64,000 nucleotides of DNA from Oscillospiraceae bacterium (GTDB lineage Bacteria > Bacillota > Clostridia > Oscillospirales > Oscillospiraceae): NCBI GenBank assembly GCA_017415425.1, contig JAFQGT010000017.1:62001-126000 (forward strand). The letters are read 5' to 3'. A program made the position numbers and the translations under genes. The notes beneath the pieces were generated by a model. It made no database searches, was not told the DNA's origin, and was given only the letters and a program-made list of their open reading frames with translations. Positions 3,594-64,000 of the stretch are shown one piece after another. How positions within the stretch are numbered: position 1 is the first letter of the stretch; each line of letters opens with the position of its first letter.

Positions 3594-3648
3594 AAATCAC
3601 GAAAGATGAGAACCCAGAGGTTCTGTAGAAATCAAGGAGGATTTTTCT

Positions 3649-45194: not shown

Positions 45195-46277
45195 ATGAAG
45201 AAAATCGTCGCTTTGATTTTAGCTGTGCTTATTTGTATCGGATTGCTTGCAGGCTGCGATTCCGGCGAAGCCGACCCCCGGAACAGCAGAATCATCACCG
45301 ATGGATCAGGCCGTCAGGTGGAAGTGCCGGAAAAAGTGGAATCTATCGTTTGCGTGGGTGTTGGCGCTCTGCGCTACACCTGTTATGTAGGCGCACAAGA
45401 CCTGGTGGTTGGCGTTGAAGACTATGAAGTAAAACCCGGCATGTCCCGGCTTTACAACTATGTTAATTTTGATAAGTTCAAGGATCTGCCGGTAATCGGC
45501 ACCAATGGGCAGCCTTACACAGAGGAGATCATCAACCTTGCTCCGGATGTGATTGTCATGAGCGCCTATGCATCTGTAGAAGCTGATGATCTGCAGACCA
45601 AGACTGGCACACCTGTCGTGGTGGTTCCCGGCAGCGACACCACTCTGGATGATGCCGCTTATGAAACCATTCGTATTATGGGTCAGCTTTACGGCATGGA
45701 AAACCGGGCAACGGAACTGACAAATTACTTAAAGGGCATTCAAAAGGATCTGGATGATAGAACCAAAGACATTCCCGACAGTGAAAAGCCTTCCGTTTAC
45801 GTGGCGGGTGTTTCCTTTAAGGGCGCTCACGGATTCGAGGGTACTGAAAGCTACTATGGTCCTTTTGAACTGATTCATGCCAACAACCTGGCCAATACCA
45901 CCGGACAGACCGGCGCCTTTGACATTGATCTGGAGCAGGTTCTTTCCTGGGATCCTGAGATTATCTTCCTGGATTTCAACGGCATGGATCTGATTAACGA
46001 GGACTATGCCACGAATCCTGATTATTACAATTCTCTGACTGCTGTTCAGGAAGGCTGGGTCTATTCTCAGATTTCCTTCCGTTCCTCCGCATCCAATTTG
46101 GAAACAGCGTTGGCTGACGCTTATTACGCAGCCTGCATCCTGTATCCGGAGCAGTTCAAGGATGTAGACCCGGTGGCAAAGGCAGGAGAGATTTTCGAGA
46201 AGCTTCTGGGAACAAATCCCTACGAAGACCTGAAGGAGGCCGGTTATGAATTCCGTCCCATCAAAATTGGAGAATAA
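45195..46277 (+). CDS. ABC transporter substrate-binding lipoprotein (BtuF/FecB type)
   Basis: 360 aa. Signal peptide with lipobox LLAGC (Cys near residue 20), so it is anchored to the outer face of the membrane. The mature part is a two-lobed helical-backbone binding protein of the TroA/BtuF/FhuD superfamily: RIITDGSGRQVEVPEKVESIVCVG at the start, EEIINLAPDVIVMSAYAS in lobe one and LSWDPEIIFLDFNG in lobe two. Ligand could be a corrinoid, heme or iron chelate; the cobalamin-rich neighbourhood favours a corrinoid but does not prove it. ATG 45195 follows GGGAGGAAAA. The gene overlaps the permease by 32 bases. Confidence 0.9.
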   Translation: MKKIVALILAVLICIGLLAGCDSGEADPRNSRIITDGSGRQVEVPEKVESIVCVGVGALRYTCYVGAQDLVVGVEDYEVKPGMSRLYNYVNFDKFKDLPVIGTNGQPYTEEIINLAPDVIVMSAYASVEADDLQTKTGTPVVVVPGSDTTLDDAAYETIRIMGQLYGMENRATELTNYLKGIQKDLDDRTKDIPDSEKPSVYVAGVSFKGAHGFEGTESYYGPFELIHANNLANTTGQTGAFDIDLEQVLSWDPEIIFLDFNGMDLINEDYATNPDYYNSLTAVQEGWVYSQISFRSSASNLETALADAYYAACILYPEQFKDVDPVAKAGEIFEKLLGTNPYEDLKEAGYEFRPIKIGE

Positions 46278-47298
46278 TGTAGACGAGCTTTATAGAAAGA
46301 ATCAAGTCAAAAGCATCAGTTTTTTGGTTATCTTAAGCGGTGTTTTGCTGCTGGCGATTCTGCTGAGCCTGCGGGCAGGTTCCTATGAAACTCCCATTGG
46401 GGAATTAATCAAAGGCATCTTTGGCTTGTCCACAGATAGAAAGATTAATATCGTTGTGCGCAACAACCGCCTGCCCCGGATTCTTACAGCAATCCTTGCC
46501 GGCGGCGGCTTGGGACTAGCAGGCTGTATCCTGCAGGCAGTGCTGCGCAATCCCTTGGCTTCATCCTCTACCTTGGGTGTATCTCAGGGCGCGACCTTTG
46601 GCGCCGCATTCGCTATTGTTGTGTTGGGATTGGGCGCTACGGATGGCTTTGGTATCCCGCTGTGTGCGTTTGTCGGATCCATTGCAGTTGCCTTGGTAAT
46701 TCTTGGCCTGAGCAAGTTCCGGCAGGTATCTCCGGAGGGTATCGTGTTGGCAGGCGTGGCCATCAGTTCTATGTTCACCGGCGCAACCACCCTCATCCAA
46801 TACTTTGCCGATGAAGTACAGCTTTCCACCTTGGTGTTCTGGACCTTTGGTGATCTTGGCAGCACCGGCTGGAAAGATTTGGGCGGTATGGCCGTAATTG
46901 TGGCGCTTCTGTGCGTGTATTGCTTTGCCCACCGCTGGGATTACAATGCCCTCTTAAGCGGTGAGGAAACGGCCATCAGCCTTGGTATCAATGTGAAGCG
47001 GCTGACCCTTGTGGGCATGGTGCTGTGCTGTCTAACCAGCTCCGTGGTGGTTTCCAATGTGGGTCTCATCAGCTTTATAGGTCTGGTTGCACCCCACATC
47101 GTTCGGATGGTGGTTGGCAACAACCATGTTTATCTGATCCCCGGCTCTATTCTGGGCGGTGCGACACTGCTCCTGTTGGGTGACCTGTTTGCAAGGACCG
47201 TCATCAGTCCGGTGATCCTGCCCATTGGCGCCATCACCTCTTTCCTTGGCGGCCCGCTGTTCCTTTACCTGCTGTTCAAAGGAGGTAAGAAGCAATGA
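46246..47298 (+). CDS. FecCD/BtuC-type ABC permease
   Basis: 350 aa integral membrane permease with about ten spans. Family signatures: RLPRILTAILAGGGLGLAGCILQAVLRNPLASSSTLGVSQGA near residue 75, FWTFGDLGSTGWKDL in the middle, and the coupling helix region GLVAPHIVRMVVGNNHVYLIPGSILGGATLLLLGD near residue 280. It forms the homodimeric channel of a BtuCDF/FhuBCD-type importer. ATG 46246 lies inside the end of the binding-protein gene, with GGAGG five bases upstream, an arrangement that couples translation. The stop overlaps the ATPase start by four bases. Confidence 0.95.
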   Translation: MNSVPSKLENNVDELYRKNQVKSISFLVILSGVLLLAILLSLRAGSYETPIGELIKGIFGLSTDRKINIVVRNNRLPRILTAILAGGGLGLAGCILQAVLRNPLASSSTLGVSQGATFGAAFAIVVLGLGATDGFGIPLCAFVGSIAVALVILGLSKFRQVSPEGIVLAGVAISSMFTGATTLIQYFADEVQLSTLVFWTFGDLGSTGWKDLGGMAVIVALLCVYCFAHRWDYNALLSGEETAISLGINVKRLTLVGMVLCCLTSSVVVSNVGLISFIGLVAPHIVRMVVGNNHVYLIPGSILGGATLLLLGDLFARTVISPVILPIGAITSFLGGPLFLYLLFKGGKKQ

Positions 47299-48050
47299 TG
47301 CAAGTAAAAAAGCTAAGTTATCATTACAAGGGTTGTCCGGAAGTGTTGAAGGATGTATCCTTCGATATCGAACCCGGCAAATTTCTGGCAATACTGGGCA
47401 ACAACGGTGTTGGTAAAAGCACCTTGCTCAAATGCTTTAACCATATTCTGAAGCCGGATTCCGGCGAGGTAATTCTGGATGGGGAGAATCTGCTGAAGCA
47501 ACCGCCCCGTGAAGTGGCAAAGAAGGTCGCCTTTGTTTCCCAGAGCGTACCCAGCACCCAGATGACTGTTCACGATGTGGTGATGCTGGGCCGCAGACCC
47601 TATATGAAATGGGGTTTTACTGAAGAAGACCACAACATCGTCCACGAATCCATGCACCGGCTGGATGTAGAGGATATGCGGGGCAGGTTCTTAAATCAGC
47701 TTTCCGGCGGTGAAAAACAAAAGGTCATGCTTGCCCGTGCGTTGGCGCAGCAGCCAAAAGCACTGCTGCTGGACGAGCCTACCAGCGCGCTGGATATTCA
47801 GAATCAGTATCAGGTTCTGAAGCTGGTGCGGGAATTCTGCCACAAGGACAATATGATCGCCGTGGTGGTCATCCACGATCTGAATTTGGCACTGCGTTTC
47901 TGTGACTGCTTCCTTCTGCTTAAAGACGGACAGGTCTACCGACACGGTGACCGCAGTATTCTGGACAGTACCGCGCTAAAAGAAGTTTATGGTGTGGACG
48001 CAAAAGTAGTGGAAATAGAAGGCCGGCACATGGTGCTGGTGGACGAATAA
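47295..48050 (+). CDS. ABC transporter ATPase (FecE/BtuD type)
   Basis: 251 aa nucleotide-binding subunit. Walker A GNNGVGKST (near residue 38), Q-loop FVSQSVPSTQM, signature LSGGEKQKVMLARAL, Walker B LLLDEPTSALD and switch His in VVVIHDLNLALRF are all intact. The mix of motifs is typical of iron-siderophore and cobalamin importers. Translation is coupled to the permease by ATGA. With the binding protein and permease it makes a complete importer. Confidence 0.96.
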   Translation: MMQVKKLSYHYKGCPEVLKDVSFDIEPGKFLAILGNNGVGKSTLLKCFNHILKPDSGEVILDGENLLKQPPREVAKKVAFVSQSVPSTQMTVHDVVMLGRRPYMKWGFTEEDHNIVHESMHRLDVEDMRGRFLNQLSGGEKQKVMLARALAQQPKALLLDEPTSALDIQNQYQVLKLVREFCHKDNMIAVVVIHDLNLALRFCDCFLLLKDGQVYRHGDRSILDSTALKEVYGVDAKVVEIEGRHMVLVDE

Positions 48051-48060
48051 GGAGGAAAAT

Positions 48061-48582
48061 ATGAAAACTTGGCAGGATTGTGTGGCTTTTCACGGCCATG
48101 AATGCGGTGGCCTGACCATCGGCTATAAGGCAAGTCTGTACGCAATTGAGCTTTTGAATTTGGAATTCTCTGCAGATGAGCAGGTGGTATGTATTGCGGA
48201 AAATGATGCCTGCGGTGTAGATGGTATCCAGGTAATGCTTGGTTGCAGCATTGGTAAAGGCAACCTGCTGTTCCATATGCGGGGTAAGCAGGCGTTTTCT
48301 TTCTATAACCGTAAGACCGGTACTTCCGTCCGTCTGGTGCTAAAACCCAAACCCGAAGGTATGACAAAAGCAGAGTCTTTCGCCTACTACCAGGGATGTA
48401 AGCCGGAAGAGATGTTTGATGTAAAGGAAACGACGATTCAGTTGCCCGAAAAGGCACGGCTGTTCGATTCTTATGTTTGCGACTGCTGTGGAGAAACCAC
48501 CGGCGCCAACTGGATCCGGCTTGCAGGTGATAAGAAGCTTTGCCTGGATTGTTATGAAAGCTATGACCGGTTTAATGTATAA
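48061..48582 (+). CDS. FmdE-family protein with C-terminal zinc knuckle
   Basis: 173 aa. The N-terminal FHGHECGGLTIGYKA and ENDACGVDGIQVMLGCSIGKGN are the FmdE signature, with conserved His and Cys that bind metal; the C-terminal VCDCCGETTGANW..CLDCYESY is a zinc-knuckle. FmdE was named for a subunit copurified with formylmethanofuran dehydrogenase, but in bacteria without that pathway it is often found with metal or molybdate-type transporters and its role is unknown. Eleven bases after the ATPase gene, with GGAGG directly upstream, so it is the fourth gene of the importer operon. It may handle the imported ligand or its metal. Confidence 0.88.
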   Translation: MKTWQDCVAFHGHECGGLTIGYKASLYAIELLNLEFSADEQVVCIAENDACGVDGIQVMLGCSIGKGNLLFHMRGKQAFSFYNRKTGTSVRLVLKPKPEGMTKAESFAYYQGCKPEEMFDVKETTIQLPEKARLFDSYVCDCCGETTGANWIRLAGDKKLCLDCYESYDRFNV

Positions 48583-48594
48583 GCAAAAGAAGAA

Positions 48595-48621
48595 GGCCGC
48601 TGATTTTGTCAGCGGCCCTTT
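48595..48621 (+). terminator. Terminator of the ABC importer/FmdE operon
   Basis: GGCCGCTGA (48595-48603), TTTTG loop, TCAGCGGCC (48609-48617), then CTTTG; modest T-tract. Confidence 0.78.
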
Positions 48622-48632
48622 GCGCTATGTAG

Positions 48633-48866
48633 TTAGATGGAGAAGGCGACCAGGACGATATCCTTGTTGGTCTTCTTGCTCAGGAGCTGTTCCAGCTCAG
48701 TGATCTTAGCCAGTGCTTCTGCGTCCTCGCTCAGCTGGGCATACTTCACGGGGCTGTAAGCGACCAGGGCAACATCTTTGCCGGTCTTGGCGGACAGTTC
48801 CTTTTCCAGAATGGTGATGGAGTCCAGCAGATCCTGACGGTCATCCAATTTGGTGAAGGTTTCCAT
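48633..48866 (-). CDS. Small internally duplicated hypothetical protein
   Basis: 77 aa, no family recognised. Two similar halves: LLDSITILEKELSAKTGKDVALVAYS (about residues 13-38) and KITELEQLLSKKTNKDIVLVAFS (about 54-76) share the pattern I..LE..LS.KT.KD..LVA.S, so each half is probably helix-turn-strand. The charge and lack of a signal peptide indicate a cytoplasmic protein. ATG 48866 follows AAGGAGGA by seven bases, and it starts 18 bases after the DUF4430 lipoprotein, so it shares that gene's cobalamin-riboswitch-controlled transcript. It may be a chaperone or corrinoid-handling factor; this is only inferred from position. Confidence 0.75.
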   Translation of the reverse strand: METFTKLDDRQDLLDSITILEKELSAKTGKDVALVAYSPVKYAQLSEDAEALAKITELEQLLSKKTNKDIVLVAFSI

Positions 48867-48884
48867 GCTTTGATCCTCCTTGGA

Positions 48885-49253
48885 TTATTCAGGCTTGAAA
48901 GCGTAGGTTGCGCCTTCGGTAATCTCGGTAGCGTCAACACCGGTCATGGCATACTCGCCATCAATGTAGAAGGCCCAGTATTTACCATCCTTGTCCCAAT
49001 CCAGAGCAACACCGTTGACGGAATCCACATACAGACCGTACTCGGTTTCGTGTCCCTCAATCAGACCTTCGGCGATCAGAGCCTCACCGACAGTTGCCTT
49101 GTCAGAGGTGTACTCGAAGGTGGTTTCCTTACCTTCCAGATCGGCTACGACAACCGTGAAGGAAGCGCCGGTAGCTTTGGGCTCGGCATTGCCACAGGCA
49201 ACCAGACCCAATACCATGACCATTACAAGCAGCAGGGAAATCAGTTTTTTCAT
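48885..49253 (-). CDS. DUF4430 lipoprotein (transcobalamin-C-terminal-like)
   Basis: 122 aa. Signal peptide with lipobox LVAC at residues 17-20, so a surface lipoprotein of about 100 mature residues. The mature part is one DUF4430 domain: SFTVVVADLEGKETTFEYTSDKATVGEALIAEGLIEG, then YGLYVDSVNGVALDWDKDGKYWAFYIDGEYAMTGVDATEITEGATYAF. This family is related to the C-terminal beta domain of intrinsic factor and transcobalamin that touches the upper face of cobalamin. ATG 49253 follows AAGGAG by ten bases. A short cobalamin riboswitch precedes it, strong support for a role in corrinoid capture. Paired with a 77-aa duplicated protein downstream. Confidence 0.9.
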   Translation of the reverse strand: MKKLISLLLVMVMVLGLVACGNAEPKATGASFTVVVADLEGKETTFEYTSDKATVGEALIAEGLIEGHETEYGLYVDSVNGVALDWDKDGKYWAFYIDGEYAMTGVDATEITEGATYAFKPE

Positions 49254-49274
49254 TTGTTTTTTCTCCTTATAAGC

Positions 49275-49400
49275 AATTTCTCTTACACTGGTGCTCGCAG
49301 CTTATAACGAGATTGTTTGTATTTCGCGATACCGACTGAGCGCAAAAGCACATCACGGCGGCGGCCCCGCACAGGATTTACACCTGTTTCCCACGAAACG
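49275..49400 (-). ncRNA. Cobalamin riboswitch, short (class II-like) form
   Basis: Minus strand: GGGAAACAGGTGTAAATCCTGTGCGG matches the B12-box core (GGGAA..GGTGnAAATCC..GCGG), then GCCGCCGTGAT, and later CAGTCGGTATCGCG, a degenerate form of the conserved AGTCAGGATACC segment. At about 105 bases it is far shorter than the classic 200-base aptamer, like the cobalamin-II/AdoCbl-variant class. TTATAAGC near its 3' end can pair with GCTTATAA (49267-49274 and 49300-49307) that overlaps the ribosome site of the DUF4430 gene, so control is probably at translation. Confidence 0.75.
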
Positions 49401-49405
49401 CTGAC

Positions 49406-49434
49406 ATTATAGCACCGTAACTCTAAGAAATCAA
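49406..49434 (-). promoter_or_regulatory. Promoter of the riboswitch-DUF4430 transcript
   Basis: Minus strand: -35 TTGATT (49429-49434), 17-base spacer, -10 TATAAT (49406-49411). Confidence 0.78.
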
Positions 49435-49511
49435 CTCGGAATAAACTACAAATCAAACACCTTGCAATCACCGAATGGTTGTGATAACCTAAAATAAATG
49501 GAGGGATGGTT

Positions 49512-50057
49512 ATGACTGAAATGGACCTGATCAAACTGGCAGAGGAAGCGGGGTTCCTTGCGGCAGTATTGCCTGCAAAGGAAATCCCGGTGGATGGTTC
49601 TTTCCGCAAATTCTGTGAGGACAATCTCTGTGGCAAATATAATGCCAATTACTCTTGCCCTCCCGGCTGTGGCACAGTGGAGGAAGTCCACCAGCGGCTG
49701 TTTGCCCAGGAAAAGGCACTGGTAGTGGAGATGATCTGGGAGGTAAATGGGTTTGATGATAAGGAATTTATCTTCTCATCCAGAAATAAACTGAATCGAA
49801 CCGTGCTGCAACTTATGGATCAGCTTCGTGAGGCAGGTATGGATGGTTTCTGCCTTGGCTATGGTGGATGTCCTCTGTGCAATCCCTGTAAGCAGACAGA
49901 GGGTAAGCCTTGTACATTCCCTGAAAAGAAGATCAGCTGTATGTCAGCTTATTGCGTCGATGTAGGAAAGCTGGCAAAGAAGTGCGATCTGCCCTTTGCC
50001 TGGTCCAATGACAAAATGCATCTGTTTGGCCTTATCGCCTTCCATAAAAAAGCATGA
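49512..50057 (+). CDS. DUF2284 metal-binding protein
   Basis: 181 aa cysteine-rich cytoplasmic protein. CEDNLCGKYNANYSCPPGCGTVEE near residue 35, CPLCNPCKQTEGKPCTFPEKKISCMSAY near residue 125 and AYCVDVGKLAKKC are the DUF2284 motifs; about eleven cysteines suggest an iron-sulfur or zinc centre. Such proteins often accompany corrinoid-dependent methyltransferases or activation proteins. Its precise role is unknown. ATG 49512 has GGAGGG six bases upstream, while the in-frame ATG six bases earlier touches the site. Divergent from the riboswitch-DUF4430 transcript and just upstream of the second riboswitch. Confidence 0.85.
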   Translation: MTEMDLIKLAEEAGFLAAVLPAKEIPVDGSFRKFCEDNLCGKYNANYSCPPGCGTVEEVHQRLFAQEKALVVEMIWEVNGFDDKEFIFSSRNKLNRTVLQLMDQLREAGMDGFCLGYGGCPLCNPCKQTEGKPCTFPEKKISCMSAYCVDVGKLAKKCDLPFAWSNDKMHLFGLIAFHKKA

Positions 50058-50091
50058 TTTTAGCTTGTATACAAGAATACGAAATTGACTA

Positions 50092-50120
50092 TTGCAATTT
50101 TAGAGAGTTTGGACTATAAT
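50092..50120 (+). promoter_or_regulatory. Promoter of the second cobalamin-riboswitch transcript
   Basis: -35 TTGCAA (50092-50097), 17-base spacer, -10 TATAAT (50115-50120), 22 bases before the aptamer. Confidence 0.78.
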
Positions 50121-50141
50121 AATTAAGCAATTTAATATATG

Positions 50142-50327
50142 TTCCCGTGGCCGGGTATAGCGCATGACGAGTACCTGGCTGAACAAGATAATGGGGTGTG
50201 AGTCCCCGCGCTGCCGGCGCTGTAAGTGTCGAGATGGCCTGCCGTTGACGAAAGTCAGTCATTGAGAGAAATCTTGAGAAGGCAGACAGGCTGTCGTATG
50301 AGACACAAGTCAGAAGACCTACGGGAA
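50142..50327 (+). ncRNA. Cobalamin riboswitch, full-length
   Basis: The closing stem is TTCCCGT (50142-50148) with ACGGGAA (50321-50327). Inside, GGGGTGTGAGTCCCCGCGCTGCC matches the conserved core and ACACAAGTCAGAAGACCT is a near-exact B12 box (CACAAGTCAGGAGACCT with one change). The approximately 186-base length is that of the classic AdoCbl aptamer. A terminator follows before the DUF2292 gene. Confidence 0.92.
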
Positions 50328-50393
50328 TGGTGTTTTACTTCTTTGCACCCGTGCGATGGGCAAAGGGGTTTACTATGTCACGCAGAAAAACGG

Positions 50394-50427
50394 CTGCGGC
50401 AGTATTCATTACTGCCGCAGCTTTTTT
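50394..50427 (+). terminator. Riboswitch-controlled terminator
   Basis: CTGCGGCAGT (50394-50403), loop, ACTGCCGCAG (50411-50420), then CTTTTTTATT. An upstream hairpin CTTTGCACCC..GGGCAAAG (50341-50366) may act as part of the switch. Confidence 0.9.
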
Positions 50428-50442
50428 ATTTGGAGGTAGAAA

Positions 50443-50604
50443 ATGCAACCTGAAAAGAATATGGTGCTGACCAAAGCGGAAAAACAGCTGATTGAGGTGA
50501 TCCGCTCTTTGGACTATGGCGAAGTCCGGGTAATGATCAAGGACAACAAGCCCATCCGGGTGGAAGAGATCCGCAGAAGTATCCAGCTTCCCAACGAGAA
50601 GTAA
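50443..50604 (+). CDS. DUF2292 (YezD-type) small protein
   Basis: 53 aa. The pattern EKQLIEVIRSLDYGEVRVMIKDNKPIRVEEIRRSIQL is that of the DUF2292 family, whose members are small cytoplasmic proteins often found beside sulfur or transport genes; in Bacillus the relative is YezD. Structure is probably a short helix followed by a beta hairpin. ATG 50443 follows GGAGG by seven bases. It is the first gene after a cobalamin riboswitch with terminator, so its level should fall when corrinoid is plentiful. Why such a gene is under B12 control is not known. Confidence 0.85.
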   Translation: MQPEKNMVLTKAEKQLIEVIRSLDYGEVRVMIKDNKPIRVEEIRRSIQLPNEK

Positions 50605-50645
50605 ATAGATAAGTAGTTTTAAGAACTGACGGAAGAACCGAAGTT

Positions 50646-50696
50646 CGAAAGGTGTAGGGACAGTGTACCCATATCTTTCGGGCTTTTTTGTTTTTT
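50646..50696 (+). terminator. Terminator after the DUF2292 gene
   Basis: CGAAAG (50646-50651) pairs with CTTTCG (50675-50680), with an inner GGG/CCC pair, then GGCTTTTTTGTTTTTT. Readthrough would place the downstream genes under riboswitch control. Confidence 0.8.
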
Positions 50697-50709
50697 ATGA
50701 GGTAGTATT

Positions 50710-51111
50710 ATGCCGCATCCAGGAAGAAGCAACATATATGAGGCCACCATCAAGCGGATGGTAAACGAAGCCTTGGAAGCACAGGAGCAGGGATTTGCCC
50801 AAAACCGTGGCAACGACAGTGACGAACAGTTGCTGGGTTACCTTTGTTTTTGTGCCAGCCTTTTGGGTCACACCCCCTGGCCCCGGGAGATCGTAGGCGG
50901 CAGCTTGATCGAAGATCGATTTGGGACCTGGCAGACGGCAATCGCAAATGCAAAATTGCCGATGCCAACAACGCCGAATAAGCTCACCGGTTTTACCCGG
51001 TATGTAGAGGAAACTGAACGGCAAAAGATTGTTTATCGGGAAAAGAAAGCTGCCAAAAAGCAAAAAGCCCAGCAAAGGCTGAAAGCACAGAAAGAAAAGC
51101 AGAAAGCTTAA
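50710..51111 (+). CDS. Homing-endonuclease-associated-repeat (HEAR) protein
   Basis: 133 aa. Residues 36-85 (DEQLLGYLCFCASLLGHTPWPREIVGGSLIEDRFGTWQTAIANAKL) match the homing endonuclease associated repeat: LG..P..., then RFGTW..A...A, a helical unit probably contacting DNA. There is no nuclease domain. The N-terminal 35 residues are helical and the last 30 are almost all Lys, Gln, Ala and Arg, likely a disordered nucleic-acid-binding tail. ATG 50710 follows GAGGTAG. It lies between the DUF2292 gene and the giant surface protein; link to cobalamin is not apparent. Confidence 0.72.
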   Translation: MPHPGRSNIYEATIKRMVNEALEAQEQGFAQNRGNDSDEQLLGYLCFCASLLGHTPWPREIVGGSLIEDRFGTWQTAIANAKLPMPTTPNKLTGFTRYVEETERQKIVYREKKAAKKQKAQQRLKAQKEKQKA

Positions 51112-51139
51112 AGTTGTTATGATTTGGTTTGCGTAATCC

Positions 51140-51390
51140 CCCTTGCGCAGACCATGAATAAGCTGCCGAACCTCCATTCGGCAGTAGATTGCCCTGATGC
51201 CGCTCCATGGGAACGGAGCGGCATTGGGAAACGAGAATAACCGCAAATGCGGTGAAGATAGATCCGGCGCGGTTTCCCTATGGAAGAACCAACGGATTCA
51301 CATCATGTCCCGGAAGCGTCGGGCATGAGCCGGTTGAACCATTTTTCCGCCCACCAGGGCGATTGCATATAGTAAATGTAAGGAGGTTTT
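51140..51390 (+). other. Long structured leader before the giant surface-protein gene
   Basis: No gene. At least four hairpins can be drawn: CTGCCGAA/TTCGGCAG (about 51171-51192), ATGCCGCTCC/GGAGCGGCAT (about 51198-51225), GGGAAAC enclosing ACCGC/GCGGT and closing with GTTTCCC (about 51227-51279), and ATGTCCCG/CGGGCAT (about 51305-51327). It is not recognised as a known riboswitch. AAGGAGG at 51379 is the ribosome site of the giant gene. Confidence 0.5.
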
Positions 51391-51396
51391 TTCAAT

Positions 51397-54300
51397 ATGA
51401 AGAAACGAATTTTCGCACTTCTGCTGGCATTTATCATGTTGGTGGGAATGCTACCTGTCAATGCCTTTGCAGCCAGCCAAGGCCAGGTCCGGGTGATCGT
51501 GGAAAATACCACATATACTGCCGATGAAGGGGCCCCCTGGGATGGCACTCTGGTGGATACCAAAGTCGACTTGACGGACAATATGACCATGATGACCGCC
51601 ATCTTGACGGCTTTGGACAATGCCGGCCATAGCTGGAACTATAACTCCGGTGATTGGGATACCACCTATATCAGCTCCATCGAAAAAGGTGGTTCCGTGG
51701 GATTGGCTGAGTTTGACGGCGGTACCGGTGCCGGTTGGAAGGGAACGCTCAACGACTGGTTCGTAAACCTGGGCTTCACAGACTGGAAGGTCTCTAACGG
51801 CACCCTGGTGGCCGGTGATGTGATCCGTGTCATGTACACCCAGGATATGGGTGCCGATATCGGCGGCGAATGGGGTGCCAATGTGGGTAACCTGAACAGC
51901 CTGACTGTCAGCGAAGGTAAGTTGTCTCCTTCTTTTGATAAGGAGACCCTGGACTACACACTGACCGTAGAAAGCGATGTTAGCAGCGTGGATATTACCG
52001 CGGTTGCAGAGAATAAGGAAGATAAGGTCACCGTCACAGTCGGCGGCACAGAGTACCGCCGGGGTGTTGATGTGCCCGTTTCTGACGGCACGGAGATCTC
52101 CGTTGCCTGCGGTGCAAAGACCTATCTGGTCACGGTCAGCGCAGCACAGCCGGAGCCTGTTACGTATGCCGTGACGCTGCCTGCGGAGACTACCGGTTAT
52201 ACGGTAGCAGCTGCAGAAGGTTCTGTGTCCCCCGTTGTTGAGGGCGGCAGCTACAGCTTTACCGTCACCATCGCCGATGGCTATGAAGCCGGTGAAGACT
52301 TTGCGGTCAAGGCCAATGATGTGGTTCTGACCGCTGCAGATGGCATCTATACCATCGAGAGTATCACTGCTGACCAGATCGTCACAGTGGAAGGCGTTGC
52401 GGAAAAAGTCGCAGAGGAAGCAGTCCCGTTCTCCACCGAGATTAAACTGCCTAGTAACGGTAACTCCAGCTGGGGATATGTTTCCAAGCTGGTCCTCAGA
52501 GGTACCGACGGCAGCATCTATGAAGCTTACTGGTCTGCTACCAGTAACCCCTTTGTTCTGGATGTGATCCTGGGCCAGGATACGGACAAGGATGCCACTA
52601 TCACCGCCGCATTCTCTGTGGCAGGCCTGCGCGCACCCTCCATTACCGGTGAAACAGCCGTCACACTGCAGAACGGCAAGGGTACCATCAATGTAACGGC
52701 CAAGAGCGCTATCGCTTCTTTCTATCCGGATACCAACTGGACCATCAACCTGACCGTAGACGACGGTTCCGCGGCCAACAGAGCCAGCTATACGGTAACT
52801 CTGCCGGAAAGCTGTGAGGCCTATACGGTAACCGCCAGCAGCAGTTCTGTATCTCCTGTCATCGAAGGCAGAAGCTACAGCTTTACGGTCACCATCCCCA
52901 ACACATACAAGGCTGGCGAGAACTTTGCTGTTAAAGCCAATGATGTGGTTCTGGAGGCTGTAAACGGCGTCTATACCATTGAAAACATCCAGGCCGACCA
53001 GGTTGTGACCGTAGAAGGCGTGGAAGAAAAAACACTGGCAGAGTTGAGTGTAACCGTCATTGCCCCCGCCGGTTCCACTATTTCTTCCGGTCGTCACTAT
53101 TCTTACTTCAAATATGATTTCAGCGAACCTCTGGAAGAAACTACATTGGAAGACGGCAGGATCCAGAAGGTCTACCCGACTCAGAGCGGCCGACAGGGCT
53201 TTGTCCGTGTTCAGCATCCCGAAGGCGTTACCTACTGGGATTTTGACGGTTTAACAGCCGGTAGCGTCTTTGAGATCACCGAGGAAATGCTGTTTATCGG
53301 CAGCAGCGAGTTTGGTAAGGAGACTGTTTACGCCAACTTTGAGAAGAATGTCAAGGACAAGGCAGACCTGTATCTGACTGCCAACGAAAAGGGTTGGCTG
53401 GACTTAAATACCGGTGATACCTGGAATCTGAATGTATTCCGCAACTTCCTGTCTCTGGGCAACACCATCTCCAATGACTGCCTGGCTCTGCCCGATGTGG
53501 AGTATAAAGTCATCTCTCCCAATGGCGGTGCTTCTGATGTGGTAAGTGTTACGCCTGATGCCAACAATAGCAGCTATGCCGAGATCAAGGCAGAGAAGGC
53601 CGGCACCGCCATCATTCTGGTCAGCTACGATGCTGTCTATAACTGTGACGGCGAAGGCGGCAAGCAGTGGTCCGCTATCTGGCCGGAGAATACCGGTGTT
53701 GTCATCGTGACGGTGGATGCAGAGGATGCCTCCATCGCTACCAATATGACCGTCAACGAGGAAGCCAACAGCGGCGGCAAGCAGGTCATCGACGCAGAAC
53801 ATGACATTCTGTTCTATGTTGAGGATTCCGGCGCCTCCTATAGCTTCAAGCCTGAGGAGGGCTGCGCTGTCACCGTCAACCGTTCCAAGGTTGGCAGCGC
53901 CATGACCTTTGGCGGCTTCACCTCCGGCGGTGTGGAAACTGCTGCCGACGGTACTGTCACGGTCACCGGTCTTACCACCGGTACCCACATCATCAAGGTG
54001 GAAAAAGACGGCAAGGCTGTCTATCAGGTGGTCCGTGCAAGACAGGTTTCTTATGAAGTCAAGCACAGCGACGGCAGCCTGGTAACGGAAGAAAGTCCCG
54101 CACAGCCTGGCGAGACCGTTACCGTCCAGTTCCATGATCTGATCTCCCCCCTGGAAAAACTGTCCGGTGTGTATAATGCCAACTTCGGCTTCTACTACAA
54201 CGGCCAGCAGGGTGTGCAGGTCCGGACCTCCGGCGGCACCTACGGCGTGTACACCTTCAGCGGCAGCGAAGGTCTGCAGAAGTTTACCGTTACCGTTCCG

Positions 54301-57300: not shown

Positions 57301-60300
57301 CGCGTCTCTACCGATGACAGTGCGACTTGGAAATACCTGGGCCAGACCGGCGCTTCCGGTGTCAGTACGGGTAAGATCGCCATCCCCACACCTACAGGTG
57401 AGGAACACTCGGTTGTCAAGGTTACCGTGCAGATCCTGGACGATGTAACCTATGCAGCCAATGTGGCGGCAGGCAAGGACGGTTTTGCGGACAGCGAACC
57501 TAAGGCCTACACCCTGTGGGTCGAGCAGATCCCTGCACCGGATATCGCCTGTGATATGGAAACTGCGGTGACAGATATTGGTGATTGGTATCCTGCCTTC
57601 CGTAAGGACAGAACCAGCTATCGTATTATTGTCGCACCCGGCGCAGCAGCACCTGTGCTGACATTCACCGTATCGGAAGGCACAAAGGTTACCGTTGCCG
57701 GAACGGAGCATACTCCCAACGAAAAGGGCGAGTATACCCTGACATTGAGTAAAACCCTCCAGGAAATTGCTGTTGCCGCAAGTGACGGTATGACCGTCAA
57801 GACCTATTCCATCGGCTATTCTGAGCGGGAAGCCAGCTCCGCAGCTGACAAGGTTGTGGACTATCTGATGGTGAACTCCCAGTATATAAACGGAAATGCC
57901 GGTGGTTACGGTACTAACCCCCAACAGACACTGACCGGTGGCCTGCTGTCTTTGGGTAACTTCGGCGGCTATGTGACCTTCTACATGGAAAACGGCCTGA
58001 CCGATGATCCTAACAATGCTTATGGCGTTGATTTCTATGTCAATGGCAATGCCTTTAAGGATGTTTCTACCGGCACCGGCCTGGGCTCTATGGAGCCCGG
58101 ACAGGTTTGGGTCTCCGAGGACGGCAATACCTGGTATGCCCTGGCAGGTTCCGAGCATTACGAGGACAGCACCCTCTGGGACTACGCGGTGACTTACACC
58201 AAAACTGAGACCGGCAGTACCGATTGGAAGGACAACCAGGGCAACACCATGGCATCTACTCACGGCAGATCCTTTGCATGGCCCAGCCCGAATGTTTACA
58301 CCATGAACGATCTGCCCAAGCAGAGTTCCTTTACCCTGACCGGTATTCTGCTTCCCTGCGTGGACGGTACCATCACCGGTACGGACAACTTTAACGCCTT
58401 CTCCAAGGGCGGCAGATTTGGCTATGTGGACCTGCTTCCCAACGGCACTTCCAACCCCTATCTGGATAACTCTGACTACAGCAACGCAAGCAGCGGATTT
58501 GACCTTAAATGGGCGGTGGATGCAGCAGGCAATCCTGTGGATGTGGCCGACAAGTCCTTCCATTATGTGAAGGTGGTCACCGCCTCCAACCTGATGGCGG
58601 GTTCTGCCAACGAAAAATCCACTGAGGTTGGTGACATCGTCCGGGCAACGGCACAGACCGAGGCTGTGGGCGTGACCGCAGCACCTTCCGGTGTGACCAT
58701 TTCCAGTGGCGATACCAGCAAAACCATTTCCTTTATAGCCGATCAGCAGATTTATGAAATGGACCTGGGCGATATGGACTATGTGTCCGTCCTGGTAGAT
58801 GGCACAGCCGAGGATGACAATATCTATGTGAACAATCAGCGTGTGGTTTCCGGCACGGCAGCCACCGGCATCAAGATCGGCAAGGATCAAAAACTGGTCC
58901 GAATCATTGTCCAGAACGGTGATAAGGAGCCTGTAATCTATGTGCTGAAGCTCAGTGGCAGTGCAGAACCCCAGGAGCTGATCGAAGGCATCCAACTGAA
59001 TGTGGACGGTGCCGGTCGCCTGGCAACCACCACCGATGGCAAGATTTTCACCGGCTCCGTTGGTTACCGAGTGGAAAGCATCGGCATCACTCCCAAGGTG
59101 GTAAGCGGTGCGGAAGTGACCATCAATGACGAAACCGTTCAGGAAAGCTACAAACTGGAAGAGGGCGAAAACACCTTCACCATTACGGCTTCCAAGGATG
59201 GCCTGAGCCAGACCGTTACTTTGAAGGTCGAAAAAGAAAAGACTCCGGAATCTACCGGTAAGATCACTGTGTATTTTGCGCTTCTGGGTGACAGTAAGCA
59301 CGGGCAGAGTGGTACTGCGCATACCCTGGCAGAGAATAATCTGACCACCTGGCTCAGCAGCACCGCTTATGAAATCGATTCTCCCGCAGCTGTGGTGGAT
59401 CTGATCGCCATGGCGCTGAAGGACCGCTATACCTATGTAAACTCCGGTGGTAACTACATTTCTTCTGTCAATGGCTTGGCAGAATTCGACAATGGACCTA
59501 ATTCCGGCTGGATGTACACCATCAATGGCATCCATTCCCAGCAGGGCATTGCCGAACAGCTGCTGCAGGACGGCGACAGTGTGATTCTTCACTACTCTGA
59601 TGACTGGACGTTAGAGCACAACCCGGACACCGGTGATGATGAAGCTGCAGCAAATGCTGTGGAAGCACTGATCGATGCCATTGGCACGGTTACGCTGGAT
59701 AGCGAGCAGAAGATCGCCCAGGCCCGTGCAGCTTATGATGCACTGACCGCTACCCAGAAAACACTGGTAGAAAATCTGGCTGTTCTGGAAGCAGCAGAGG
59801 AAGCTTTGGCACTACTGAAACTGGCCGGCACGGATATTACCGATATTTACAAAACAACCGGTGATTATCTGGCAGGATTGACTGCTCCTACGTTTGGTAC
59901 TACCAACGGAGAGTGGCGCGTCATTGGCCTTGCCCGCGCAGGCAGAGCCGTGGCAGACAGCTATTATGACGCAGTAGTCCAGTATGTGAAGGACAATATC
60001 GACGGCAGCGGTAGACTCCACGCAGTAAAATCTACCGACAACTCCCGTCTGATTGTTGCCCTGACCGCCATCGGCAAGGATGTGACCGATGTTGGTGGCT
60101 ATGATCTGTTGGCTGGCCTGAACGAAATGGAATACATCGGCAAGCAGGGTATTAACGGCACAATCTGGGCATTGATCGCATTCGATACCCATGATTATGA
60201 GATCCCCACCGGGGATGTGACCAGAGAGAAATTAGTACAGACCATTCTGGATGACCAAAAGACAGGCGGTGGTTGGGCACTGAGCGGTACTGTGGGTGAC

Positions 60301-63300
60301 CCGGATATGACCGGTATGGCTCTGCAGGCATTGGCTCCTTACTACAGTACCAATTCCGCAGTGAAGACAGCGGTGGATAAGGCGCTGACCTGGCTGTCCG
60401 GAATCCAAAACAAGAACGGTACTTTCTCCGGTTCCGAAGGAACCACCAGCGAATCTTTGTCTCAGATCATCACGGGTCTGACCGCTTTGGGCATCAATCC
60501 TGAGACCGACAGCAGGTTCGTGAAAAACGGTGTATCCGCAGTGGATGCGCTGGCTCAGTTCTATGTGGAAGGCGGCGGATTCAAGCACATCCTTGCCGGC
60601 GACCGGAATATGATGGCCACGGAACAGGGCTACTACGCATTGGTGTCCTATTACCGTCTGCTGCAGGACAAGACCGCTCTGTATGATATGTCGGACGTGA
60701 CCATTCAGACCGCAGCTATGGATCAGGAAGCAGCGGATGCGGTGGAAGCGCTGATTGATGCCATCGGTACTGTCACCAAGGACAGCGGAGAAAAGATCAA
60801 GGCTGCCCGTGATGCCTACGATGCTTTGACGGATACCCAGAAACAGCTCGTTGCAAACTACAAGACGCTGACTGATGCGGAAGCTAAGTATGCGCAGCTT
60901 GTCAAGACGGCGGAAGATGAGGCGGCAGCCAAGGCAGTTGAAGATAAGATCGATGCCATTGGCACAGTCACGCTGGATAGTGAGGGTAAGATTAAGGAAG
61001 CACGTAAGGCTTATGATGCACTTACCGATGTGCAGAAAGCACTGGTAAGCAATCTGGATAAGCTGGAAACTGCCGAAAAGGCACTTGCTGATCTTAAGGA
61101 TGAAGCTGCGGCCGATGAAGTAGAAAAGCTGATCGACGCTATCGGCACTGTCACCAAGAATAGTGGTGATAAGATCAAGGCAGCTCGTGATGCTTATGAC
61201 AAGCTGACAGACGATCAGAAAAAGCTGGTTGAGAATTACAAGACCCTGACCGATGCGGAAGGCAAGTTCAAGGAACTGAATTCTACTGCTGAAATAAGCT
61301 TTACTTTGCTTGGCTGCTATACGCACGGCGAAGACAAGGTTCATACTTTGGCAGAGGGCAACTTAAGCACATGGATTGCCAAGAAGACCTACAAGGTAGA
61401 ACCGGGCGCAACCGTCAAGGATGTGCTGGAAATGGCACTGAAGGAAGCCGGTATGAGCTATCGCAACCCCACCGGCAACTATGTAGAGTCCATTAACGGC
61501 ATCGGCGAATTCACCAATGGCGGCAATTCCGGCTGGATGTACACGCTGAACGGTATTCACCCCGGCCTTGGTGTTGGGGAGCAGACGGTGAAGGACGGCG
61601 ATGTGATCGTATTCCATTACACCGATGACTACACCAAGGAGGAAGGCAGCCAGGGCTATGGCGATAGAGACAAGGCAGCGGCAGAAAAAGTTGAGAAGCT
61701 GATTGATGCAATTGGTACGGTCACCCTAAACAGCAAGGATAAGATTGATGCTGCCCGTAAGGCATACGACGCATTGACCTACACCCAGAAGCAGATGGTT
61801 GATAACTACGCGACTTTGACTGCTGCGGAGAGCAAGTATGCCCAGCTGAAGAAGGATGCGGACGAAGCCGCTGCCAAGAAGGTCGAGGATATGATCGACA
61901 CTCTGGACAGCAATTCCGCTACTTTCGAGGAGGATGTGAAGGCTGCAAAGAAGGCATACGATGCACTGACAGCCGATCAGAAGAAGCTGGTGGGGAACTA
62001 TCAGAAACTGGCCGATGCTTTGAAGGAACTGGCTTCCGAGGAGGATAAGAAAGCCGCAGAAGCAGTGGAAAAACTGATCGATGCCATCGGTACTGTCACC
62101 AAGGACAGCGAAGCTGCAATCAAGGCAGCCCGGGAGGCCTATGAGAAACTGACAGATGAACAAAAGGCACTGGTCGGAAATCTGGATGTGCTGGAAGCTG
62201 CCGAAGAAAAACTTGCTGCATTAAAAACCCTGGTTGGTATCGAAGAAATCTACAAGGCCACCGGTGATTATCTGGAAAAACTGGGAACTCCTGTTCCGGG
62301 AACCGTCGGCGGTGAGTGGATGGTGATTGGCCTGATCCGTTCCGGTCGCGAGGTTCCTGATGCTTACTACGACAATGCAGTGAAGTTTGTGCAGGAGAAT
62401 ATCGATGAAAACGAACGCCTGCACAGCGCAAAGTCTACTGAGAATGCCCGTATGATCCTGGCACTGACGGCCATCGGCAAGGATGTTACCAATGTGGGCG
62501 GACATAATCTGCTCTCCGGTCTGACTGACATGACTTATGTTCAGAAGCAGGGTATTAACGGCCCCATTTGGGCGCTGATCGCTTTTGATTCCGGAAATTA
62601 TCCGATTCCTGAAGGCGGCGATGTGACCCGTGAAGCTTTGATCCAGGTCATCCTGGATGCTCAGCTTTCCGATGGCGGTTGGGCACTTAGCGGCAGTACC
62701 TCCGATGCTGACATCACCGGCATGGCACTGCAGGCACTGGCTCCCTACTACAAGACGGATGCAAAGGTAAGGGCGGCAGTGGACGAAGCACTGGAAACGC
62801 TGTCTGTGATGCAGACGGCAGACGGCTCCTTCGGTAGTATTGACGGTGTCAGCGCGGAATCCATTGCGCAGGTTGTGGCAGGCCTGTCGGCATTGGGAAT
62901 CGATACCCATACCGATGCGCGATTCATTAAGAATGGCATGTCCGCAATTGATGCGCTGTGTGCCTTCTATGTGGAAGACGGCGGATTTAAGCACATTCCC
63001 AATGGCAATCTGGACGGCATGGCCACTGAACAGAGCTACTACGCTTTGACAGCCTACTTCCGCATGCTGGACGGAAAGACCGCACTGTACGATATGACCG
63101 ATGTGATCAATATGGGTGGCGATGTGACTGTTGAGGAACCGGTAGAAACACTACCTGCTGAGACTGAATCTGCACCCACAGAACCGGTGGAAATCCCTGC
63201 TGAAAATGACCGCAGCTTCCCCTGGTGGCTGGTGATCGTGATCGTGGTACTGGCAGGGGCTATTGTGGTGCTTGTGATCATTTCGGGGCCTAAGAAAGGC

Positions 63301-63315: not shown

Positions 63316-63337
63316 TCCTTACTTGCCTAAAACATAA

Positions 63338-63390
63338 GGAGAGCGGATTCGGAGAGGGAAAAACCCATCCGAATCGGCTCTCCGGTTTTG
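63338..63390 (+). terminator. Terminator after the giant gene
   Basis: GGAGAGCGGATTCGGA (63338-63353) pairs with TCCGAATCGGCTCTCC (63368-63383) with one mismatch, then GGTTTTG. A second hairpin TGTGAAAGCGGCC..GGGCTGTTTTCACA lies at about 63408-63440. Confidence 0.8.
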
Positions 63391-63471
63391 CCCGTTTATA
63401 GACCTCTGTGAAAGCGGCCTCAACCGGGCTGTTTTCACAGAAGCCTATGAAGAATATGAGGTGTTTTAGCT

Positions 63472-64000
63472 ATGAAAAAGAAAACAATTGCAAATCTCAT
63501 CATGGTGCTGACCATTGCGCTGATCGTGGCGGTTGGTGCGCTGGTTGCGTGGTTTTTGATAGAGCCGGAGGAAAGCCTTTACGGAAGCGAATTTTATCGG
63601 GTAGAAATACCAAATCATCGGTTGGTCACAAACGAAGATACCCAGAACCTATGTACCATCACCATCCGCTGCGATACGATTTTTGACAACGCCGATGCCT
63701 TGGAAGAGGCAAAGGCACCTTATGTCCCGGAGGACGGTGAGATCCTGCCTGTCGTTACGGTGGAATTTACCCCCGGAGAAACGGTGTTCGATGTGCTGCA
63801 GCGGGTGTGCGAAGCATCGGAATTACAGTTGGAATACAGCTGGACACCCCTTTACGACAGCTACTATGTGGAGGGCATCAACCATCTGTACGAGTTTGAT
63901 TGCGGCTTTGAGTCCGGTTGGATGTATAGGGTGGACGGATGGTTTCCCAACTATGGCTGTTCTGCTTACGAGTTGCAGGGCGGCGAGGAAATCGTCTGGT
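63472..64000 (+). CDS. DUF4430 membrane-anchored protein (cut by window edge)
   Basis: At least 176 aa; no stop before the right edge. Residues 5-30 form a signal anchor (IANLIMVLTIALIVAVGALVAWFL), then a short linker and VEIPNHRLVTNEDTQNLCTITIRCDTIFDNADALEEAK, followed by the DUF4430 domain: TVEFTPGETVFDVLQRVCEASELQLEYSW, INHLYEFDCGFESGWMYRVDGWFPNYGCSAYELQGGEEIVW. FESGWMYRVDG is the hallmark strand, also present in the giant protein. ATG 63472 has GAGG 12 bases upstream. It extends the run of corrinoid-binding candidates, and is probably the first gene of a further transcript. Confidence 0.85.
   Translation, partial: MKKKTIANLIMVLTIALIVAVGALVAWFLIEPEESLYGSEFYRVEIPNHRLVTNEDTQNLCTITIRCDTIFDNADALEEAKAPYVPEDGEILPVVTVEFTPGETVFDVLQRVCEASELQLEYSWTPLYDSYYVEGINHLYEFDCGFESGWMYRVDGWFPNYGCSAYELQGGEEIVW

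Follow-up and report, generated by a model that had tools for sequence, protein, structure and literature searches.

A probable surface corrinoid-capture locus with intrinsic-factor-like domains beside an ECF transporter in an Oscillospiraceae bacterium

The region described here comprises positions 45195-64000 of a 64,000-nucleotide window of DNA from a gut Oscillospiraceae bacterium (assembly GCA_017415425.1, G000 in our numbering), the window being positions 62001-126000 of contig JAFQGT010000017.1 (C4, 137,150 bases). It contains a cobalamin riboswitch, a giant surface protein with DUF4430 and alpha/alpha-toroid domains and, at the window end, a membrane-anchored DUF4430 protein, followed just past the window by genes for an energy-coupling factor (ECF) transporter and for corrinoid-remodelling-type enzymes (Table 1). 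The locus probably encodes a surface corrinoid receptor with alpha and beta domains like those of intrinsic factor, which would feed the dedicated ECF importer, with the remodelling enzymes encoded in the same operon. Surface capture of corrinoids had already been proposed in a first-pass annotation of this DNA, and the proposal appears strengthened by the riboswitch-fronted, exported-looking DUF4430 genes located in one operon with ECF and salvage genes.

The giant protein contains a signal peptide (a hydrophobic, signal-like amino-terminus, as judged by simple hydropathy), three beta domains of the DUF4430 type (PF14478, cut-off 23.8 bits), Cadherin-like and Big_2 domains, helical hairpin repeats, two alpha/alpha-toroids and a carboxy-terminal anchor. 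The toroids, which are absent from the first-pass annotation, are located at about residues 2813-3085 and 3614-3895. The last of them sits at the anchor, and the next gene encodes the membrane DUF4430 protein, which starts with a hydrophobic helix by the same hydropathy measure. The three DUF4430 genes annotated earlier are all present; of the three such domains ascribed to the giant, two score above the cut-off, while the divergent amino-terminal one falls below it. In the whole source genome, five DUF4430 domains in four genes exceed the cut-off. Given the amino-terminus and carboxy-terminal helix of the giant, the amino-terminal helix of the membrane protein and the lipobox of a small DUF4430 lipoprotein, these proteins look exported and anchored.

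To judge by the gene arrangement, the toroid and the membrane DUF4430 protein belong together, since they are adjacent in the window and are fused in two relatives, where a single open frame encodes both: 560 codons from stop to stop in G004 (loci L043/L084) and 556 codons in G038 (loci L047/L078). These fused frames consist of a signal-like stretch, the toroid, a hydrophobic stretch, a short basic loop, a second hydrophobic stretch and the DUF4430 domain (hydrophobicity assessed by eye). The order is alpha then beta, as in intrinsic factor and transcobalamin.

The leader of the operon (50092-50422) has a promoter-like site, an RF00174 aptamer above threshold and a terminator-like hairpin, from which we infer the layout of a transcription-terminating riboswitch. 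Other terminator-like sites on the plus strand up to position 51500 have at most seven pairs, with few G-C pairs, and between 63199 and 72399 ten were found on both strands together, versus 10.2 expected from shuffles; these two ranges make up the scan, the body of the giant lying outside both. Because the scanned sites are weak and no commoner than in shuffled sequence, transcription probably continues from the DUF2292, HNH_repeat and giant genes into the ECF operon. The second of two cobalamin riboswitches annotated earlier, an RF01482 element of the adenosylcobalamin (AdoCbl) type ahead of the minus-strand lipoprotein gene, scores below threshold, yet is well placed: it is on the right strand, ends about 20 bases ahead of the lipoprotein ATG and follows a promoter-like site. 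Its expectation value (E) is 0.002 in a 24 kb scan and 3e-5 in a 371-base scan; when this short element was aligned with five others, they were too divergent for covariation to be counted.

Four RF00174 matches are present in the source genome (the operon on C4, and C15, C8 and C26), with the sub-threshold RF01482 element as a fifth. The C15 match lies 281 bases ahead of the DUF4430 domain of the fourth DUF4430 gene, while the C8 and C26 matches precede a second EcfT-EcfAA'-EcfS set, C26 looking like an assembly duplicate of C8. All five elements precede a DUF4430 gene, an operon with DUF4430 genes or the same ECF family. As a separate observation, the EcfS of the second set (L013 3672-7120, and L014) is 57% identical to that of the operon and is located behind a borderline riboswitch of 32.4 bits, which is not among the matches listed by a second scan.

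From the membrane DUF4430 protein to CobC, the genes all run in the plus direction and either overlap or are at most 10 bases apart; four start codons past the window were picked by hand. The ECF genes are followed by a CbiR-like protein of the AP_endonuc_2 family, by CobT, CobU, CobS and a short second CobU, and by a CobC-like gene. CbiC, the sole marker of ring synthesis tested, was not found in the source genome (rated at 97% completeness and 4.5% contamination), while CobT, CobU, CobS and the CobC-like gene are present, which points to a corrinoid salvager. The only PF02310 corrinoid protein of the genome (locus L133) adjoins a uroporphyrinogen-decarboxylase-like methyltransferase; a PocR/AraC-like regulator is encoded there too, methyltransferase and regulator having been named by eye. 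With regard to the transporter itself, EcfS carries a conserved amino-terminal extension of 57 residues, which includes two hydrophobic segments and precedes the usual S-component core (L011 3561-3731). In many relatives (L061, L063, L099, L105 and others) a single open frame of about 810-960 codons encodes both EcfAA' and EcfS, the ATPases first, and the EcfS matches in G006, G010, G041, G025 and G035 contain one TAA.

An operon holding CobT, CobC and CobS would also suit a transporter which, together with the DUF4430 and toroid proteins, imports alpha-ribazole, a lower-ligand base or cobalt, not corrinoids; EcfS has no NCBIfam substrate model above cut-off and EcfT2 is weakly CbiQ-like, below the cut-off. 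We regard this as unlikely. CbiC was not found, so some corrinoid would have to be imported, the cobalamin riboswitches of the genome precede this ECF transporter family, and the domain pair is of the kind described for intrinsic factor and transcobalamin (PMC1796856).

Among 61 congeneric genomes, PF14478 is found in 50 and, under stricter filters, RF00174 in 60; an EcfS protein occurs in 41 (in 37 of them at E below 1e-40), CobT in 42 and CbiC in 23. The 95 DUF4430 matches were merged by contig, strand and frame into 82 genes. For 27 of the 82, a same-strand RF00174 element ends at most 1 kb upstream, where a fraction of 0.06%, or about 0.05 genes, would be expected; this and all further distances to riboswitches in the genus refer to the 150 RF00174 places listed. 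The count uses above-threshold elements, leaves contig ends uncorrected and treats related genomes as independent. G038 holds a duplicated contig pair and G028 and G031 share coordinates, and the binomial p of 2e-66 is not usable with relatives and duplicates among the genomes. As a control, 33 matches to the Cadherin-like domain were reduced to 24 genes, of which one has a riboswitch within 1 kb and two have one within 2 kb, both being DUF4430-bearing giants. Riboswitch placement ahead of these genes exceeds chance, given this genus count and the position of all five elements of the source genome. EcfS genes, lying inside operons, have an upstream riboswitch within 2 kb in none of 44 cases and within 6 kb in three, while a DUF4430 domain is located within 6 kb of at least 29 of the 44 (36 of the 95 DUF4430 places being used).

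A wider search with the toroid alignment returned at least 79 loci, at least three of which (L054, L084 and L093) apparently correspond to the genus genomes G030, G004 and G027. By BLAST, a DUF4430-type domain is present in 75 of the 79 listed loci and EcfAA' in 61. In 53 the toroid gene lies at most 1.5 kb ahead of a membrane-type DUF4430 gene, and in 55 the latter is followed within 300 bases by the start of an ECF gene, overlaps being allowed. A CbiR-like gene was found in 10 and CobT in 7 of the 79, within flanks of up to 10 kb. The same arrangement, with alpha/alpha-toroid, DUF4430 and ECF transporter in that order, is seen again in Ruminococcus bromii, Paenibacillus and Latilactobacillus curvatus; a megaplasmid of the last species carries an LPXTG-toroid, DUF4430, EcfT, ATPase and EcfS in a row. 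This minimal cassette (L135 7791-13433, equal to CP117684.1 114052-119694) is on a megaplasmid typed as mobilizable, and the species would be a handy test organism. In Vescimonas fastidiosa, a toroid/DUF4430 protein is 63.8% identical over the toroid, and no ECF gene is listed beside it in an incomplete gene table. Of 14 loci chosen from the 79 for riboswitch scanning, 12 have RF00174 at threshold; in eight (L062, L110, L113, L116, L122, L123, L124 and L126) it lies at most 500 bases before a toroid or DUF4430 frame, and in L119 and L094 it is 2.7 and 4.3 kb ahead of one.

Much of the 3,972-residue giant is located outside the beta and toroid domains, including the Cadherin-like and Big_2 parts, and the genus has Cadherin-like domains elsewhere without listed riboswitches. 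The giant could accordingly be mainly an adhesin, with corrinoid capture left to the small DUF4430 proteins and EcfS. This seems improbable to us: in many relatives, toroid proteins of about 340-700 residues fill the slot of the giant, and the toroid is joined to the DUF4430 membrane protein in the two fused frames.

In the first-pass annotation, the surface DUF4430 proteins were proposed to pass corrinoids to the importer of the BtuF/FecB type encoded at 45195-48050. This importer is in the same region and has a permease whose best NCBIfam model is BtuC, but such a handover is quite unlikely and was not borne out. No riboswitch was found ahead of the importer in a scan of the region for cobalamin riboswitches. 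Relatives of its binding protein (E at most 1e-60) are present in 13 of the 61 genus genomes; none of their 14 copies has a same-strand riboswitch within 6 kb upstream, and in 10 of the 13 carriers the binding protein is on a contig with no listed riboswitch, EcfS or CobT, these ten genomes being drafts in which a separate contig does not prove distance. In G000, G022 and G055 it shares a contig with corrinoid genes and lies only a few kb from them. It directly follows CobC on the same strand in G055 and is divergent from the riboswitch of the corrinoid operon in G022, two arrangements that speak for the handover. The binding protein and the permease are below every listed NCBIfam cut-off (the scan did not include the ATPase), and the importer is not part of the recurring toroid-DUF4430-ECF gene order. 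It was rejected as the main partner on account of the missing riboswitch, the 14 copies and the 10 carriers; its cargo may be corrinoids or something else, and the ECF transporter starting just past the window is the better partner.

Several observations weigh against a surface corrinoid receptor feeding this transporter. Three of the enzymes fall short of their NCBIfam cut-offs, the CbiR-like protein with 47.5 of 105 bits, CobS with 70.9 of 110 and CobC with 122 of 162.9, although CobS passes its Pfam cut-off; with such a score for NF041277, a CbiR identity cannot be assigned to the first. EcfS is nearer to RibU (3p5n, E 1.2e-6) than to chain 6fnp_A (E 3.7e-4), which we take to come from the CbrT complex. 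Read-through is made less certain by the gaps flanking the giant, 285 bases ahead of it and 156 bases behind it. In the wider survey, the RF00174 matches of L131 and L091 do not front toroid or DUF4430 frames, L096 and L105 have none at threshold, and no cobalamin riboswitch was detected in the L. curvatus cassette at E of 0.5 or below. For 15 of the 44 EcfS genes in the genus, a paralogue in the source genome included, the contig holds no DUF4430 match, several of these genes being near contig ends. ECF carriage does not exclude CbiC either: CbiC is present in 12 of 37 carriers and in 11 of 24 non-carriers (Fisher p 0.42), and mutual exclusion within the genus was dismissed on this result.

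To this may be added that the sequence likeness to intrinsic factor is weak. The first-pass annotation had related DUF4430 to the carboxy-terminal domain of intrinsic factor and transcobalamin; on the human intrinsic factor sequence, checked against 2pmv, PF14478 does span nearly its full length (positions 1-71 of 72), but with 18.4 bits (E 0.003) it stays below its cut-off. When two DUF4430 profiles were compared with the beta domain of intrinsic factor, 23 and 4 of 100 shuffles reached the score. The toroid profile beats 100 of 100 shuffles against the alpha domain, with an hhalign probability of 8%. PF01122 matches two of 54 toroids, the best at E 0.0078, and was not found in the window toroids; neither toroid nor DUF4430 profiles match solved intrinsic factor or transcobalamin chains at E of 10 or below among the matches listed. 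With PF14478 under its cut-off, shuffles reaching the scores, the low hhalign probability and the scarcity of PF01122, the resemblance is one of domain kind and context, and common descent is not proven by sequence alone.

The best solved relatives of the toroid by sequence are terpene cyclases (profile E 2.6e-13), and SQHop_cyclase_C matches 48 of 54 members of the toroid family at E of 1 or below, so that an extracellular terpene cyclase or prenyltransferase-like enzyme comes into consideration. Class II terpene cyclases carry a DXDD motif. At the corresponding toroid site, all 54 members have M, I, V or L as the last residue, and a cyclase assignment was rejected for this reason; together with the signal peptide, the membrane anchor and the riboswitch and operon context, this makes an enzyme of that kind highly improbable.

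The features of the region and of the operon past its end are collected in Table 1; positions beyond 64000 continue the window numbering. Ten window proteins were scanned against Pfam, and the importer of the BtuF/FecB type and the FmdE, DUF2284 and DUF2292 proteins all proved to be where they had been annotated. The carboxy-terminus of the FmdE protein has a weak zinc-ribbon match (zf-dskA_traR, 23.2 bits, cut-off 24.9). The DUF2284 gene is inside or just ahead of the corrinoid operon in G004, G038 and G060 (loci L043, L047 and L037), strictly inside it in G004 and G038. In G060, HNH_repeat and DUF2292 genes are likewise upstream of the corrinoid operon.

Table 1. Features of the corrinoid locus, in window numbering, with the evidence for each
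Feature	Position	Strand	Evidence
Substrate-binding lipoprotein, FecBCD/BtuFCD-type importer	45195-46277	+	PF01497 71.1 bits; probably outside the core system
FecCD/BtuC-type permease	46246-47298	+	PF01032 299.8 bits; best NCBIfam model BtuC 217.8 bits, below cut-off 334
ATP-binding cassette (ABC) ATPase of FecBCD-type importer	47295-48050	+	PF00005 121.9 bits
FmdE-domain protein	48061-48582	+	PF02663 111.3 bits
Small lipoprotein with one DUF4430 (beta) domain	48885-49253	-	PF14478 34.2 bits; lipobox LVAC by eye
AdoCbl-type cobalamin riboswitch before DUF4430 lipoprotein	49275-49415	-	RF01482 36.3 bits, below threshold 50
Promoter-like site TTGATT-17-TATAAT with TG extension	49406-49434	-	Pattern match alone
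DUF2284 predicted metal-binding protein	49506-50057	+	PF10050 132.9 bits
Promoter-like site TTGCAA-17-TATAAT	50092-50120	+	Pattern match alone
Cobalamin riboswitch aptamer ahead of operon	50129-50340	+	RF00174 53.6 bits, threshold 31.5
Terminator-like hairpin after aptamer	50392-50422	+	13 pairs, then TTTTTATTTG T tract; probable expression platform
DUF2292 small protein	50443-50604	+	PF10055 22.7 bits, cut-off 22
Small HNH_repeat protein	50710-51111	+	PF18780 31.5 bits
Giant surface protein, 3,972 residues	51397-63315	+	DUF4430 102.9 bits, two stretches
Amino-terminal DUF4430 domain of giant (first, divergent)	51475-51846	+	20.0 bits, E 9e-4, below cut-off
Second DUF4430 domain of giant	59257-59616	+	54.5 bits
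First alpha/alpha-toroid of giant	59833-60651	+	SQHop_cyclase_C and Prenyltrans, 19.4 bits each, below cut-off; family alignment
Third DUF4430 domain of giant	61282-61641	+	63.3 bits; best stretch residues 3337-3409
Second alpha/alpha-toroid of giant, beside anchor	62236-63081	+	Prenyltrans 19.9 bits, below cut-off; conserved family
Carboxy-terminal transmembrane anchor of giant, residues 3945-3963	63229-63285	+	Simple hydropathy
Membrane-anchored DUF4430 protein, 193 residues	63472-64053 (53 bases past window)	+	PF14478 59.6 bits
EcfT1	64057-64932	+	No family match; named by place and similarity to EcfT2-type relatives
EcfAA'	64905-66563	+	TIGR04520 349 bits, over cut-off; also over TIGR01166 (cbiO) cut-off
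EcfS	66560-67267	+	PF07155 58.3 and PF12822 48.6 bits, both over cut-off
EcfT2	67251-68129	+	CbiQ 22.1 bits, cut-off 25
CbiR-like AP_endonuc_2 protein	68126-68875	+	Best NCBIfam model NF041277 47.5 bits, cut-off 105
CobT	68885-69964	+	TIGR03160 426.4 bits, over cut-off
CobU	69961-70506	+	PF02283 91.4 bits, over cut-off
CobS	70503-71240	+	PF02654 143 bits, over cut-off; TIGR00317 70.9 bits, cut-off 110
Short second CobU (CobU2)	71250-71612	+	-
CobC	71609-72145	+	TIGR03162 122 bits, cut-off 162.9

If the locus encodes a surface corrinoid receptor coupled to the ECF transporter, low intracellular cobalamin would cause the riboswitch to let transcription continue past the terminator, and the operon would be made. 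The giant and the membrane DUF4430 protein would then act together, the anchor-side toroid of the giant and a DUF4430 beta domain closing over the corrinoid much as the domain pair of intrinsic factor and transcobalamin does, while further capture sites may be provided by the additional domains of the giant and by the separately encoded DUF4430 lipoproteins. From there the corrinoid would be passed to the EcfS of the transporter encoded next, and inside the cell the CbiR-like protein and CobT, CobU, CobS and CobC would remodel corrinoids to the form the cell uses. A more specific version, to which we give a little less than an even chance, is that of a two-protein, membrane-tethered bacterial intrinsic factor, its toroid on the giant and its beta domain on the neighbouring protein, the two being fused in some species, that docks directly on EcfS, passing the vitamin from clamp to transporter, with remodelling encoded on the same transcript, as a widespread Firmicutes counterpart of BtuG/BtuB.

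At this locus, a predicted class of surface proteins resembling intrinsic factor is linked with cobalamin riboswitches, with a dedicated ECF transporter and with enzymes of the remodelling type. If this is correct, it bears on the competition between microbes and host for B12. Burroughs et al. predicted in 2007 that bacterial transcobalamin-like SLBB proteins with toroids scavenge B12, and suggested a Gram-positive bacterial source for the B12 binders of animals (PMC1796856), an idea on which the locus would bear as well. Because the cassette is present in the named species and genus R. bromii, Paenibacillus and L. curvatus, that prediction is directly testable. Among the literature matches listed, in which subscription papers are thinly covered, no experiments on DUF4430 proteins in the role of B12 receptors were seen.

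When known systems are compared, human intrinsic factor and transcobalamin resemble the locus in having an alpha/alpha-toroid and a carboxy-terminal beta domain, the latter matched by PF14478 below its cut-off in intrinsic factor, and in the alpha-then-beta order found in the fused frames of L078 and L084, whereas in the giant the units run beta then alpha, are membrane-anchored, are encoded beside an ECF transporter and give no PF01122 match. Fish Tcn-like proteins carry a carboxy-terminal DUF4430 domain, as TCN proteins do (PMC4350170). The Bacteroides BtuG/BtuB route, of which the first-pass annotation saw a Gram-positive counterpart, is similar in role, with surface capture ahead of a transporter, but consists of a beta-propeller and an outer-membrane barrel (PMC6977713); no Pfam family of beta-propeller lipoproteins or TonB-dependent barrels was found in the ten window proteins scanned, so the parallel extends to role and not to parts. 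ECF-CbrT of Lactobacillus delbrueckii, experimentally shown to be a cobalamin ECF transporter, likewise has S, T and two ATPase parts (PMC5997447), while here a surface module shares the operon and EcfS carries its extension. A proteomics annotation reads 'additional lipoprotein component of putative cobalamin ECF transporter', and in L. rhamnosus a DUF4430 protein is near rtpR (PMC9963975); that lipoprotein is tied to the transporter by annotation alone, and in the account given there its DUF4430 identity and a toroid partner are unstated. For CbiR of Akkermansia, 25% of cbiR homologues adjoin putative transport genes (PMC7733943); the AP_endonuc_2 protein of the operon has the same model, NF041277, as its best NCBIfam match, but at a score below the cut-off (Table 1).

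The closest likeness is to the class described by Burroughs et al., in which anchored or secreted SLBB (DUF4430-type) domains are fused to toroids on either side and to FIVAR and immunoglobulin-type domains, and in which the operons hold a CbiO-like ATPase, a CbiQ-like membrane protein and often a second SLBB paralogue (PMC1796856). The window locus has the corresponding features: a beta domain above threshold, predicted export and anchoring, the pairing with a toroid, and CbiO-like and CbiQ-like genes. In the main text of that paper the word riboswitch is absent; an S component and a linkage to CbiR or CobTUSC are not among the features taken from it here. The relatives go further in having toroid and membrane beta domain joined in one predicted protein, separated by two membrane helices. 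Beyond that class, the locus contributes a riboswitch regulon, a connection with a CbiR-like protein and CobTUSC, and the toroid-DUF4430 fusion, together with the conserved amino-terminal extension of EcfS and a giant form with several predicted capture domains.

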